This document shows, in pieces, positions 35,823 through 44,187 of a stretch of 64,000 nt of DNA. Where the stretch lies: positions 310,001 through 374,000 of the forward strand of contig NZ_AP025158.1 of NCBI RefSeq assembly GCF_019974155.1. The letters run 5' to 3'. The notes below the pieces were generated by a model. The model ran no database searches, had not been told where the DNA came from, and saw only the letters and a program-made list of their open reading frames with translations. Position 1 is the stretch's first letter. Each line of letters starts with the position of its first letter. The stretch is from Thermus thermophilus (lineage in GTDB: Bacteria > Deinococcota > Deinococci > Deinococcales > Thermaceae). The position numbers were made by a program, and so were the translations under genes.

Positions 35823-36259
35823 GGAAGCTTTTGGCGACCGCGGTTCTGCTTTTGGGCCTGGCCTCGGCCCAGTTCTCGGTGGAGAACCTGAAGCCTTCCT
35901 TCGCCTTCGTGGGCGGCACCCAGGGGTTTGGCCTTGAGCTTTCCTGGCACTGCCTCCTCTTCCAGCTCCCCGTGGGGGAGGTGCGCCCCGCCTTGGACCT
36001 GGCCTACACCGTTGCGGGGGACTTTAACGGGGCCTTCCTCTTCCGCTACCTCTACCCGGTGGCCGAGGGGTTTAAGGCGGGGGCCGGCCTCGGGGTGGCG
36101 GTTACCGGCCTCAACTTCAGCAACACGAGCCTTTACTTCCGCGCCGACGCCGAGTACGACCTGGCCCAGGCCCTGAACGTGCCCGCCTTCGTGGGCGCCG
36201 ACCTGGGCCTTGCGGGCGGGAAGTTCGCCGCCCAGCTCAAGGTGGGCTACCGCTTCTGA
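35819..36259 (+). CDS. Small outer-membrane beta-barrel-like exported protein
   Basis: A 146-residue protein with a clear signal peptide (MRKLLATAVLLLGLASAQ, cleavage after ASA). The mature part is built of alternating hydrophobic/polar strands (GLELSWHCLLFQLPVG, NGAFLFRYLYPVAEG, SLYFRADAEYDLAQAL) and ends in KVGYRF, a terminal aromatic residue as in outer-membrane barrels recognised by BamA. About eight strands are predicted by eye. It has a strong promoter and an intrinsic terminator of its own. Role unknown; a small porin-like or structural protein is possible. Confidence 0.7.
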   Translation: MRKLLATAVLLLGLASAQFSVENLKPSFAFVGGTQGFGLELSWHCLLFQLPVGEVRPALDLAYTVAGDFNGAFLFRYLYPVAEGFKAGAGLGVAVTGLNFSNTSLYFRADAEYDLAQALNVPAFVGADLGLAGGKFAAQLKVGYRF

Positions 36260-36296
36260 GCACCCCACCACGGCGAAAGTCTAAGCGGGACGAAAA

Positions 36297-36331
36297 GATG
36301 GAGGCGGCCAAAAGCCGCCTCCATCCTTTTT
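36297..36331 (+). terminator. Classic intrinsic terminator
   Basis: GATGGAGGCGGC-CAAAA-GCCGCCTCCATC (12-bp stem, 36297-36325) followed by CTTTTT (36326-36331). It ends the outer-membrane gene and abuts the 3' end of the convergent tRNA-Ser gene. Confidence 0.9.
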
Positions 36332-36422
36332 GGCGGAGGGGGCGGGATTCGAACCCGCGAGGCCCCGCGAAGGGCCTACCGGTTTTCGAGACCGGCCCGT
36401 TCAACCGCTCCGGCACCCCTCC
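36331..36422 (-). tRNA. tRNA-Ser (anticodon CGA)
   Basis: On the minus strand a 92-nt class II tRNA: acceptor GGAGGGG paired with CCCCTCC, discriminator G, encoded CCA (36331-36333), anticodon loop CT-CGA-AA (anticodon at 36386-36388), a long variable arm (AGGCCCTTCGCGGGGCCT) and T arm GCGGGTTCGAATCCCGC. It reads UCG codons. Its first 22 nt (36401-36422) are also the last codons of tilS-tadA on the same strand. Confidence 0.97.
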
Positions 36423-37924
36423 CTGAGCCGGGCGAAGAAGTCCCTTAAGAGCTTAGCACACTCCCTTTCCCGCACACCACCCCGGGCCCGGGTGGGGAGG
36501 CCGAAGCGGGTGAGGGCGCCTTCCTTGAGGTTTTCCGCCCCGTAGACCACCTCTACCCCCGCCTGGGCCAGGGCGTGGTGGCACATGAGGCAGGGCTCGA
36601 GGGTCACGTAAAGCCGCCCGCCCCGGGCCTCGGGCCCCGCCTCCCTAAGGAGGAGCATCTCCGCATGGGCCGTGGGGTCCCTTAGCCCCTCCACCCGGTT
36701 GTGCGCCCGGAGGACGCGGCCCGGGAGGACGAGAACCGCCCCCACCGGCACCTCCCCTTCCCGGAAGGCCAAAGCCGCCTCCGCCAAGGCCTCCGCCATG
36801 TGGGCCTCCTCGGGAGGGGGCGGGTAAAGGCCCAGGACCTCCACCACCCGGCTGCCCTCGGCACGCACGGGCCAGAGGGGCTTGAGCTCCCGGGGGACCC
36901 CTTTTTCCGCCAGGAAGTCCACGAGGCGCTTCCTCCCGGAAGGACGCTCCAGGTAGTCCCCGGGCGCGGGGCGGCGGAACCCCGGGGGCAGGGGCAGGCG
37001 GGGCCTTGGGGGGAGGAGGAAGAGGGTGCCCCCCTTGCGCCGGGCCAGGACGCCCCCCGGGAGGGTCTGGGGCCGGCCGCGGAGGGCCTCTTCCAGGAGG
37101 AGGACGAGGCGGGCCTCCGGCCTGAGGCCGAGCTTTTCCAGAAGCCGCCTCAAGGCCCGGCGGCGCACCGCCAAGGGGGCCTCGAGGAGGGGCGCCGCCC
37201 GGAAGGCGGGGACGAAGAAGCGGGGGTCGGGGAGGAGCCGGGCCTCGGCCTGGCGCTCCAGGACCCCTTCCTCCTCGGCCCGAGCCTCGGCGAAGCGGGC
37301 CAGGGCGCGCTTGGCCGCGGGAAAGCGCTCCTCCAAGAGGGGAAGGACGAAGAGCCGGAGGAAGTTCCGGTCCAGGGCGGGGTCCTGGTTCGTGGGGTCC
37401 TCGCGCCAGGCCTCTCCTCGGGCCCGGAGGTAGGCCCGAAGCTCCTCCCGGGTGTGGGCCAGGAGGGGGCGGACCACGATCCCCTCCCGCTCCCGGATGC
37501 CCGTGGCCCGGGCGGTTCCCTGGAGGAGCTGGAGGAGCACGGTCTCCGCCTGATCGTCCAGGGTGTGGGCGGTGAGGATCGCCCGGGCCCCCACCTCCCG
37601 GGCCACCCGGTGGAGGAAGGCGTAGCGCACCTCCCGGGCCACCGCCTCCAGGTTCTCGCCCCGGGCCTGGGCGATCCGGGCCACCTCCACCCGCTCGGTG
37701 AAGAAGGGGAAGCCCAGCCTTTCCGCCAGGGCCCGGACGAAGGCCTGGTCCAAGGGGCTCTCCGGGCGCAGGCCGTGGTCCAGGTGGGCCACCACCGCCT
37801 GGCGCCCCGCTTCCTTCACCAGGAGGGCCAGGGCCACGGAGTCCCCGCCCCCGGAGACGGCGAGGACGAGGGGGTCTTTGGGGGCGAGGCGAAGAAGGCG
37901 CTCGCGGAAGGCCGGGACGTCCAT
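36401..37924 (-). CDS. tilS-tadA: Fused tRNA(Ile)-lysidine synthase / tRNA adenosine deaminase (TilS-TadA)
   Basis: A 507-residue fusion of two anticodon-34-modifying enzymes. TilS (about 1-370) has the PP-loop LAVSGGGDSVAL, AHTLDDQAETVLL and the C-terminal LVDFLAEKGVP domain; it makes lysidine at C34 of tRNA-Ile2(CAU). TadA (about 376-507) has the zinc deaminase motifs HAE (420-422) and PCLMC (444-448) and converts A34 to inosine in tRNA-Arg(ACG). The final seven codons and the stop lie inside the tRNA-Ser gene on the same strand. It is 46 nt downstream of a CAU tRNA, so tRNA, modifying enzyme and tRNA appear co-transcribed. ATG 37924 is the first start matching the TilS N-terminus. Confidence 0.93.
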   Translation of the reverse strand: MDVPAFRERLLRLAPKDPLVLAVSGGGDSVALALLVKEAGRQAVVAHLDHGLRPESPLDQAFVRALAERLGFPFFTERVEVARIAQARGENLEAVAREVRYAFLHRVAREVGARAILTAHTLDDQAETVLLQLLQGTARATGIREREGIVVRPLLAHTREELRAYLRARGEAWREDPTNQDPALDRNFLRLFVLPLLEERFPAAKRALARFAEARAEEEGVLERQAEARLLPDPRFFVPAFRAAPLLEAPLAVRRRALRRLLEKLGLRPEARLVLLLEEALRGRPQTLPGGVLARRKGGTLFLLPPRPRLPLPPGFRRPAPGDYLERPSGRKRLVDFLAEKGVPRELKPLWPVRAEGSRVVEVLGLYPPPPEEAHMAEALAEAALAFREGEVPVGAVLVLPGRVLRAHNRVEGLRDPTAHAEMLLLREAGPEARGGRLYVTLEPCLMCHHALAQAGVEVVYGAENLKEGALTRFGLPTRARGGVRERECAKLLRDFFARLREGCRSG

Positions 37925-37946
37925 GCGCCTTCCATGATGCCACGGC

Positions 37947-37964
37947 CCCCCGGTTTCCCGGGGG
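37947..37964 (-). other. GAAA-tetraloop hairpin between tRNA(CAU) and tilS-tadA
   Basis: CCCCCGG-GAAA-CCGGGGG on the minus strand forms a compact stem between the tRNA 3' end (37971) and the tilS start (37924). There is no T-run, so it is more likely a processing or attenuation element than a full terminator. Confidence 0.5.
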
Positions 37965-37970
37965 ACCTCC

Positions 37971-38047
37971 TGGTGGCGGCGGTGGGACTCGAACCCACGA
38001 CACCACGATTATGAGTCGTGTGCTCTGACCACCTGAGCTACGCCGCC
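37971..38047 (-). tRNA. tRNA with CAU anticodon (elongator Met most likely; Ile2 possible)
   Basis: A 77-nt class I tRNA on the minus strand: acceptor GGCGGCG/CGCCGCC, discriminator A, encoded CCA (37971-37973), anticodon stem CACGA/TCGTG with loop CTCATAA, T arm GTGGGTTCGAGTCCCAC. Paired 1-72 (G-C) rules out initiator tRNA. The GGCGG acceptor looks like elongator Met; the CGACTCATAATCG anticodon stem-loop also resembles tRNA-Ile2, the TilS substrate encoded next door, so the identity is not certain. Confidence 0.93.
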
Positions 38048-38065
38048 AGGCGCCAGGCAACCCCC

Positions 38066-38094
38066 ATCATAGGGGAGGCCGGGCCTCTGGTCAA
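38066..38094 (-). promoter_or_regulatory. Sigma-A promoter of the tRNA(CAU)-tilS-tadA-tRNA-Ser unit
   Basis: On the minus strand TTGACC (38089-38094), 17-bp spacer, TATGAT (38066-38071). The predicted start is about 11 nt upstream of the tRNA 5' end at 38047. No other promoter is obvious before tRNA-Ser. Confidence 0.8.
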
Positions 38095-38165
38095 TCGTTT
38101 CGCCATTGGCCCGGGGAGTCTCCCCAAGGACCTTCTGCCGGGGTCCCCGTGTGGACACAAGCCCG

Positions 38166-39278
38166 TTACACAATGCCCCGCTCCCGCAAGGGCTTTCCTT
38201 CCCGGAAGCGGCTTAGGCGGAAGGGGGCGATATCCAGGCTTTGCGCCTTTCCGAAGGCCACCTCCTCCGCCATGAGGCGGCCCACCATGGCCGCCTGCTG
38301 CACCCCGTGCCCCGAGAAGCCCGCGGCCAAAAGAAGCCCCTCCTCCACGAAGCCGAGGATGGGGTTGTGGTCCGGGGTTACCTCGTAGTAGCCCCACCAG
38401 CTCGCCCTTGGGTCCAGGGAAAGCCCTTCCAGGAAGGGGAAGCGGGCGAGGCCCGCCTCGAGGGTGGGCCCAAGCCACCCCCAGTCCATCCCCTCCCGGA
38501 AGCCCGGGGGCTCCTCGGGGTTGGAGCGGCCGAAGAGGAGGCGGCCTCCCTCGGAGCGGAAGTAAAAGCCCGTGCCGAGGTCCACGGTGAGAGGAAAGGC
38601 GTGGGGGAAGGGCGTGGGGGCGGTGGCGAAGACCATGCGGCGCACCGGGTAAATGGGGATCTCCAGGCCCAAACGCCTTCCCACCTCCCCCGTCCAGGCC
38701 CCGGTGCAGAGGAGGAGGAAAGGGGCCTCGTACCGCCCCTTCGCCGTCTCCACCCGCCAAAGCCCCTCCTCCCGCCGGGCGGAGAGGAGGGCTTCCGAAA
38801 AGCGCACCTCCGCCCCAAGCCGCCTCGCCTCCCGGAGGTAGTAGGCCGTGGCCCCGTGGGGGTCTATGGTCCCGTCCATGGGGCCGAAGGTGGCGTAGGC
38901 CAGGCCCTCCTCCTTAAAAGGCACCTTCCTTTGGGCCTCCGCCAGGGAAAGCCTCTCCACGGGGACCCCCAGGGCCTTCTGCACCCTTAGGGCTTCCTCC
39001 TGGGCCTCGGCCTGGGCCTCGGGCACCAGGAAGAGGTACCCGATGGGCCGGTAGGCGGCCTCGGGGATCTCCCGGTACTCCAGGATGGAACGGTAGGAGA
39101 GGAGGACGTTAAGGGGCTCGGAGAACTGCACCCGCACCCCGGCGGCGCTCTTGCCCGTGGACCCTTGGGCGTAGGTGGCCTCCTTCTCCAGGACCAAGAC
39201 CCTAAGCCCCTTTTCCGCCAGGCGGTAGGCCGAGGCCGCCCCCACGATCCCCGCCCCCACCACGACCACGTCCGGCAT
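38166..39278 (-). CDS. FAD-dependent amine oxidoreductase (DadA / sarcosine oxidase beta-like)
   Basis: A 370-residue flavoprotein of the DAO family. The N-terminal Rossmann motif VVVGAGIVGAASAYRL and LVLEKEAT bind FAD; GKSAAGVRVQFSEP is a family loop; the C-terminus has YEVTPDHNPILGFVEEGLLLAAGFSGHGVQQA, the second FAD-binding signature. Substrates in the family are D-amino acids, sarcosine, glycine or proline-like imino acids; none can be chosen here. ATG 39278 is 6 nt from TAGACT (39285-39290, minus strand), leaderless. Confidence 0.87.
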   Translation of the reverse strand: MPDVVVVGAGIVGAASAYRLAEKGLRVLVLEKEATYAQGSTGKSAAGVRVQFSEPLNVLLSYRSILEYREIPEAAYRPIGYLFLVPEAQAEAQEEALRVQKALGVPVERLSLAEAQRKVPFKEEGLAYATFGPMDGTIDPHGATAYYLREARRLGAEVRFSEALLSARREEGLWRVETAKGRYEAPFLLLCTGAWTGEVGRRLGLEIPIYPVRRMVFATAPTPFPHAFPLTVDLGTGFYFRSEGGRLLFGRSNPEEPPGFREGMDWGWLGPTLEAGLARFPFLEGLSLDPRASWWGYYEVTPDHNPILGFVEEGLLLAAGFSGHGVQQAAMVGRLMAEEVAFGKAQSLDIAPFRLSRFREGKPLRERGIV

Positions 39279-43002: not shown

Positions 43003-44187
43003 GTTGCAAGAGCTTGAGCCCCGTAAGGGGATTGCGACTCCTTGCCCTCGTAGGTCTCCGTCTGGAGCCTCCCTTGTTGCAAGAGCTTGAGCCCCGTAAG
43101 GGGATTGCGACTAGGCCCCACCCTAGGGGGTGCCCTAGGCACCCCTTCAGGTAGTTGCAAGAGCTTGAGCCCCGTAAGGGGATTGCGACTGAAAGCACAG
43201 TTGTAGTTGGCTTGCCCGTTCTCCTGGAGTTGCAAGAGCTTGAGCCCCGTAAGGGGATTGCGACTGGAGGGGCCTGGCCCGGAACAGGAGCTCTTCGAGC
43301 TCTTGCCGGGTTGCAAGAGCTTGAGCCCCGTAAGGGGATTGCGACGGGACGTAGTACGTGGAGACGGCTCCCTCTTCCTCCGTTGCAAGAGCTTGAGCCC
43401 CGTAAGGGGATTGCGACGCTGACCGCAATAACGCACATCGCTCACCCCCTAATCCAGTAGAGTTGCAAGAGCTTGAGCCCCGTAAGGGGATTGCGACGGG
43501 CCCCGTAATCTGTATCGTCAGGCACCCCGAAGTGCACATGTTGCAAGAGCTTGAGCCCCGTAAGGGGATTGCGACTTATCCCGCACGACCCCCTGATGCA
43601 CCCAGAACTTCCGCTTTGTTGCAAGAGCTTGAGCCCCGTAAGGGGATTGCGACCTCGGCGAGGTGACCGGAGAAGCTAAGGAGCAAGTCCTTGAGTTGCA
43701 AGAGCTTGAGCCCCGTAAGGGGATTGCGACCCGGTCATAGACCCGGGTGGGGACGGTGGCAATGACAACCGGTTGCAAGAGCTTGAGCCCCGTAAGGGGA
43801 TTGCGACTCCTTGGCGTGGCGGTAGGAGGCGGGGAGGGGGAAGAACCTGGTTGCAAGAGCTTGAGCCCCGTAAGGGGATTGCGACCGCCCTATGCCTCTA
43901 CTCCTCCTCCGCCTCTTCCTCCTCAGTTGCAAGAGCTTGAGCCCCGTAAGGGGATTGCGACTCGGTGATGAGGACGCTTCCTTCGCGACTCCTGAACTTA
44001 GCCAGTTGCAAGAGCTTGAGCCCCGTAAGGGGATTGCGACACGGGTTTGACAGCCTTGATGATCTTAGCTTTCATCTGTTGCAAGAGCTTGAGCCCCGTA
44101 AGGGGATTGCGACTCGCCGTACTCCCGGGTGACGAAGACGCGGTACTCCTGGTTGCAAGAGCTTGAGCCCCGTAAGGGGATCGCGAC
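43003..44187 (+). CRISPR. Orphan CRISPR array, 16 repeats and 15 spacers
   Basis: Sixteen 36-bp repeats beginning GTTGCAAGAGCTTGAG, with the stem CCCC-GTAA-GGGG and the 3' end ATTGCGAC (the likely 8-nt crRNA handle). Repeat starts: 43003, 43076, 43154, 43229, 43310, 43382, 43462, 43540, 43618, 43695, 43772, 43850, 43926, 44005, 44078, 44152. Spacers are 36-45 bp. The last repeat alone has a change (GGGGATCGCGAC, C at 44182), so the leader is on the left and transcription is plus-strand. The repeat closely resembles the Thermus repeats processed by Cas6 enzymes for type III systems. No intact cas gene lies in the window. Confidence 0.97.

Follow-up and report, generated by a model that had tools for sequence, protein, structure and literature searches.

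Does a gene for a tRNA-modifying enzyme that ends inside a tRNA gene form a regulatory device with that tRNA, or does its ending reflect the way neighbouring genes are packed? The question is raised by tilS-tadA of Thermus thermophilus, which lies in the window analysed here, a stretch of 64,000 nt (C1:310001-374000) from a genome of 2.17 Mb. A first-pass annotation had proposed that RNase P cleavage at the tRNA 5′ end would strip the stop codon from the message, that maturation of the tRNA and synthesis of the enzyme exclude each other, and that this could be a built-in feedback. The features at the 3′ end of the gene are as follows.

36401..37924, minus strand: tilS-tadA fusion gene, 507 amino acids, tRNA(Ile)-lysidine synthetase and tRNA adenosine-34 deaminase (open reading frame and profiles)
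36331..36422, minus strand: tRNA-Ser(CGA), CCA encoded (ARAGORN, Rfam, acceptor stem)
36401..36422, minus strand: 22-nt overlap, in which tRNA nucleotides 1-22 are also the end of tadA (..EGCRSG-stop; sequence, 25 Thermus genomes)
36401..36403, minus strand: TGA stop of tilS-tadA, nucleotides 20-22 of the tRNA in the D-loop GGTTGA (sequence)

The overlap in Thermus and its relatives

The tRNA was matched at 36423-36331 by ARAGORN and at 36422-36334 by Rfam RF00005 (56.5 bits). Its acceptor stem of 7 bp (GGAGGGG/CCCCTCC) places G1 at 36422, and CCA reaches 36331. The stop of the open reading frame, at 36403-36401, lies within the tRNA gene at 36422-36331, confirming that the ending of tilS-tadA inside a same-strand tRNA gene is a real observation. 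The sharing of 22 nt stands as first described, although the count of seven final codons was slightly generous: the shared stretch opens on the last base of an Arg codon and continues through six complete codons (E G C R S G) to the stop. Nucleotides 1-19 of the tRNA are free of stops in every frame.

The overlap is not a product of chance since the protein is a genuine TilS-TadA and its end is identical in 25 Thermus genomes. The TilS half scores 159.3 bits against TIGR02432, above the curated cut-off of 93.6, and its SGGxDS motif reads SGGGDS, invariant in 13 relatives. The TadA half carries a deaminase domain (PF00383, 65.4 bits) with both zinc motifs, HAE as H420-A-E422 and PCxxC as P444-C-x-M-C448, also invariant in 13 relatives. 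Against NF008113 this half scores 81.6 bits, below the cut-off of 150, as expected for a domain within a fusion. The fusion itself occurs across the whole phylum. TilS acts on tRNA-Ile(CAU) and TadA on tRNA-Arg(ACG), both of which are encoded elsewhere in the genome; tRNA-Ser(CGA) is not known to be a substrate of either enzyme.

The 25 genomes with the end ..REGCRSG-stop include the window genome, T. igniterrae, T. scotoductus, T. tenuipuniceus, T. brockianus, T. arciformis, T. composti and T. caliditerrae. T. parvatiensis, the closest named relative of the window genome (97% protein identity), has the identical end with the frame broken farther upstream; its tilS-tadA (G061) matches as two pieces in different frames, the reading frame being either truly shifted or misread in sequencing. 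In the 26th Thermus genome (G060) the tRNA is read in a different frame and the stop lies 47 nt in, the change expected of a drifting tail. Outside Thermus the 22-nt overlap is found in genome G071 from a neighbouring genus, in one of the two genomes of another genus (G024) and in six genomes of the sister family. It is absent from Meiothermus, where the stop precedes the tRNA by 38-327 nt, from Calidithermus (21-22 nt), from G023 (a gap of 52 nt) and from two sister-family genera (gaps of 3-4 and 11 nt). These sister lineages rule out the overlap as a general feature of Thermales, and the protein tree, in which the deep forks are poorly resolved, requires at least two changes of overlap state. 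Absence from close relatives had been taken in advance as evidence against the feedback idea; comparison shows the overlap to be real and old within the genus, and its lack in sister genera counts against that idea. In a Truepera-like genome outside the Thermales families (G109), tRNA-Ser(CGA) lies 39 nt downstream of tilS-tadA, so the adjacency of the two genes may predate their overlap.

A predicted tRNA-Ser promoter within tadA

The last codons of tadA before the tRNA, and the sequence beyond it, contain four further features.

36450..36458, minus strand: extended -10 TGC-TAAGCT (TGCTAAGCT) of a predicted internal tRNA-Ser promoter, within the codons TGT GCT AAG CTC
36446..36460, minus strand: five-codon stretch TGT GCT AAG CTC TTA (codon comparison, 24 Thermus species)
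36479..36481, minus strand: invariant GGT, a rare Gly codon that may belong to a weak -35 (GTGGTG)
36297..36325, minus strand: GC-rich hairpin 5 nt past the tRNA CCA, likely transcript end (sequence)

In each Thermus species tadA contains TGTGCTAAGCT, whose TAAGCT ends 27 nt upstream of G1 of the tRNA. The element fits the pattern of a sigma-70 extended -10, TGn and then TAnnnT, and its place ahead of the tRNA is conserved; about ten other tRNA genes in the window genome have TGCTANNNT as their extended -10. The codons that spell it are TGT GCT AAG CT-, followed by TTA or CTA in Thermus. TGT and GCT stand at the element in 24 of 24 Thermus species, and elsewhere in the gene make up 6.8% of Cys and 5.6% of Ala codons, respectively. 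Indeed, the residue is invariant and its codon degenerate in 271 columns, of which no more than five show A or T as third base in at least 90% of the 24 species, and all five (codons -26, -19, -18, -15 and -1) fall among the last 26 codons: three at the -10 element, one at the GGT codon (-26) and one in the tRNA D-loop. Codons -19 to -15 also have the lowest codon adaptiveness and the highest A/T third-base content of the gene across these species. In Meiothermus the homologous tadA codons are mostly ordinary (TCG GCC AAG CTG CTG) and TGCTAAAGT is found in the spacer before the tRNA, preceded in several species by GTGAC[TA] at a spacing of 17 nt. The -10 element and the odd codons move together, the element following the space available.

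The conserved -10, the invariant rare codons and the Meiothermus element in the spacer indicate that tRNA-Ser(CGA) appears to have its own promoter embedded in tadA. A conserved element of this kind should give tRNA-Ser independently, which argues against the tRNA depending on the tilS-tadA message. The first-pass annotation had itself named a tRNA-Ser promoter inside tilS-tadA that drives nearly all of the tRNA, with the fusion mRNA never processed, as evidence that would undo its reading, and as far as sequence can show the predicted promoter agrees with this.

The promoter has unusual features. No recognisable -35 lies 16-18 nt from the -10, the best candidate being GTGGTG, 19 nt before TAAGCT; a -35 is optional for extended -10 promoters. 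The distance from -10 to tRNA is 26-27 nt here as against 11-16 nt for most tRNA promoters in the genome. The poor -35 and this unusual distance leave room for a weak internal promoter and for a contribution from read-through. A plain consensus promoter scan of 36200-38200 did not call the internal site and comparative codon evidence was used for that reason; the literature searched yielded no usable Thermus start-site data. The invariant rare codons could in principle serve otherwise, for example by slowing the ribosome near the stop. Folding of the leader together with the tRNA gave nothing beyond chance (z of -0.4 and -0.1). The hairpin after the CCA is visible in other Thermus species too, and that at 36297..36325 can also be read as the terminator of a convergent gene ending at 36259.

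A second overlap at lnt

The same layout recurs once more in the genome, outside the window.

G000:C1 about 1623787-1625315 (L147:1056-2522): lnt (apolipoprotein N-acyltransferase), its end overlapping tRNA-Leu(CAA)

Like tilS-tadA, lnt ends 22 nt inside its tRNA in the same frame relation, with the stop at tRNA nucleotides 20-22 and a promoter in the coding region. It differs in having TAG rather than TGA, a good -35 and a -10 only 12 nt from the tRNA, the lnt codons containing TTGAC[CG]-N17-TATCCT at that distance. The overlap is present in all 26 Thermus genomes with lnt and in G071. The lnt stop of Meiothermus and Calidithermus precedes the tRNA by 12-36 nt and adjoins the -10 (GCACTATAGTTTAG). 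Hence the embedded promoter appears to have come first, and a later loss of the stop would have let the frame continue into the tRNA. Lnt, a lipoprotein acyltransferase, is unrelated to tRNA modification, and so the arrangement is blind to protein function.

These two cases are the yield of a survey of the window genome in which 2 of 47 tRNA genes overlap a frame of real coding character, judged by third-position GC pattern (base composition) and not by homology. Another 22 open frames enter tRNAs in this genome, none with the third-position GC pattern of real genes. The same survey gave none among 48 tRNA genes in a sister-family genome and one among 46 in a Meiothermus-group genome, a 71-codon frame that we regard as spurious.

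Probable gene packing and the predicted fate of the message

The same ending at the unrelated lnt, together with the promoter predicted for the tRNA, points to gene packing rather than a feedback switch. We consider it probable that the end of tilS-tadA has become locked into its overlap with a tRNA whose promoter is embedded in the gene, and that this is no dedicated feedback device. We infer the following course. The promoter (-10 TGCTAAGCT) and the 5′ end of tRNA-Ser(CGA), which lie within the last 20 codons of tilS-tadA, would have moved into, or grown within, the end of the upstream gene. A stop of tilS-tadA's own before the tRNA would have been lost or never present, leaving the frame to run to the TGA of the D-loop; D-loops often provide TGA or TAG. 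The bases from the last needed TadA residue (FFARL) to the stop would then be owned by the tRNA or lie directly after the promoter and the TadA helix. Since changes to the last codons would harm the promoter, the helix or the tRNA, an earlier stop would be hard to regain and the overlap would become fixed in the genus. These constraints would in turn keep the tails identical even if the overlap as such were not selected. The tails EGCRSG and PGWRNR are translated tRNA and not protein motifs, a caution for annotation.

Most tRNA-Ser would start at the internal promoter, carry a leader of about 20 nt and end at the hairpin past the CCA. Messages of tilS-tadA initiated upstream would run through the tRNA and could be trimmed by RNase P. 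Where cutting preceded translation, the message would be non-stop and become a task for tmRNA, a gene for which is present in the genome; this side effect may be tolerated because little enzyme is needed.

The first-pass interpretation is partly supported. With its sole stop in the tRNA, the full-length message is predicted to carry an RNase P site and to become non-stop if cut there: every stop-containing tilS-tadA mRNA would be an RNase P substrate, and a message cut at the tRNA 5′ end would finish ..CTC AG. The claim that tRNA and enzyme exclude each other goes too far. A ribosome may reach the stop before RNase P acts, so the two products need not be exclusive, and a message translated before cutting could give normal protein.

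The idea of a message made non-stop by RNase P is not new, having been published for selB/selC (Mukai 2021, PMC8124441). There, selB genes contain or end within tRNA-Sec in Alphaproteobacteria, Dyella/Luteibacter and Nitrospirae, and RNase P cutting was proposed to yield a non-stop message. As in tilS-tadA, the end of a protein gene overlaps a same-strand tRNA gene, and the overlap is conserved and lost in some relatives; in Dyella/Luteibacter nucleotides 46-48 of the tRNA form the stop (PMC8124441). The frame of tilS-tadA likewise runs into a same-strand tRNA gene. In selB/selC, however, the tRNA is the partner of the protein, SelB binding Sec-tRNA, and a shared transcript was proposed (PMC8124441), whereas tRNA-Ser(CGA) is an ordinary elongator tRNA and no functional partner of TilS or TadA, an internal promoter is predicted for it and lnt repeats the layout. 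Protein and tRNA genes also overlap in animal mitochondria, for example cox1 and tRNA-Lys of Armadillidium (discussed in PMC8124441). Those overlaps similarly share bases on one strand, and release of the tRNA competes with the message, but they occur in long polycistrons with no promoter for each tRNA, whereas in Thermus a bacterial promoter lies in the protein gene. We found no earlier account of two such overlaps kept throughout Thermus, with ordinary tRNAs and promoters embedded in the genes, in a search that was thin on subscription journals.

An alternative close to the selB/selC proposal, without its matching tRNA, is that RNase P governs tilS-tadA: most message would be cut, non-stop and tagged by tmRNA, and the resulting ceiling on the enzyme would be selected. 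Such control would fit the position of the stop solely inside the tRNA, its conservation across the genus, the tmRNA gene and the retention of the overlap after a frame change in G060, and cutting of mRNA by RNase P near tRNA-like structures is documented (PMC11143913). We nonetheless think it unlikely, given that the tRNA has a predicted promoter of its own, that lnt is arranged alike and removes any link to tRNA modification, that Meiothermus, Calidithermus and part of the sister family lack the overlap, and that tRNA constraint already explains the conserved tail. It is similarly doubtful that RNase P and tmRNA set a selected, genus-wide translation ceiling on both tilS-tadA and lnt messages. 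Were that so, maturation of tRNAs would exert a general control on protein genes, rather than a tRNA-enzyme feedback, and the full-length messages of both genes, with stops only in tRNA D-loops, would be obligate RNase P substrates.

Compaction with no internal promoter, in which tRNA-Ser would come solely from the processed tilS-tadA transcript, would account for the poor -35 match, the unusual -10 distance and the silence of the consensus scan. It leaves unexplained the invariant rare codons exactly at the -10 and the element in the Meiothermus spacer, and we judge it very improbable.

The last alternative concerns the tRNAs around the gene, including one on its upstream side.

37971..38047, minus strand: tRNA with anticodon CAU, elongator Met type, 46 nt upstream of the tilS ATG (tRNA search and comparison)
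38066..38094, minus strand: promoter TTGACC-N17-TATGAT before tRNA-Met, which may also transcribe tilS-tadA (promoter scan)

This promoter was the only sigma-70-like site found in 36200-38200. We considered whether TilS lies beside its own substrate and rejected it, the upstream CAU tRNA being slightly nearer tRNA-Met than Ile2. It scores 43 against E. coli tRNA-Met and 39 against Ile2, and the genome has a second CAU tRNA with a clear resemblance to Ile2 (42 versus 21), both comparisons serving as leads only. Feedback as first framed, with maturation of the tRNA and production of the enzyme sensing one another, has both functions on one potential transcript in its favour and is scarcely credible: tRNA-Ser(CGA) is no known substrate of TilS or TadA, the CAU tRNA upstream resembles tRNA-Met while the Ile2-like CAU tRNA is encoded elsewhere, lnt has the identical layout, sister genera lack the overlap, and no sensor element was seen at the locus, where only the two tRNAs match Rfam.

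In Thermus, a genetically tractable genus, conserved protein genes hold the 5′ ends of ordinary elongator tRNAs and what appear to be their promoters, and the stop codon of the protein falls within the tRNA. The locus offers a clean place to ask what becomes of a bacterial message whose sole stop RNase P removes, and how one stretch of DNA meets the constraints of protein, promoter and tRNA together.

Several further observations were made around the gene. Besides the window genome, the upstream CAU tRNA occurs only in T. parvatiensis and, at a greater distance, in G060; in the window species the tilS-tadA message may have a tRNA on either side. Between tRNA-Met and tilS (37925-38094 region) is a strong GC hairpin, CCCCCGG-GAAA-CCGGGGG. 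The divergent G060 has a gene for tRNA-Ile(UAU), a tRNA unusual in bacteria, just upstream of tilS-tadA (L267:1842-1919), and also keeps an Ile2-like CAU tRNA and TilS. A plasmid search gave no match. Finally, a CRISPR array of 16 repeats, matching Rfam CRISPR-DR36, lies at 43003-44187.
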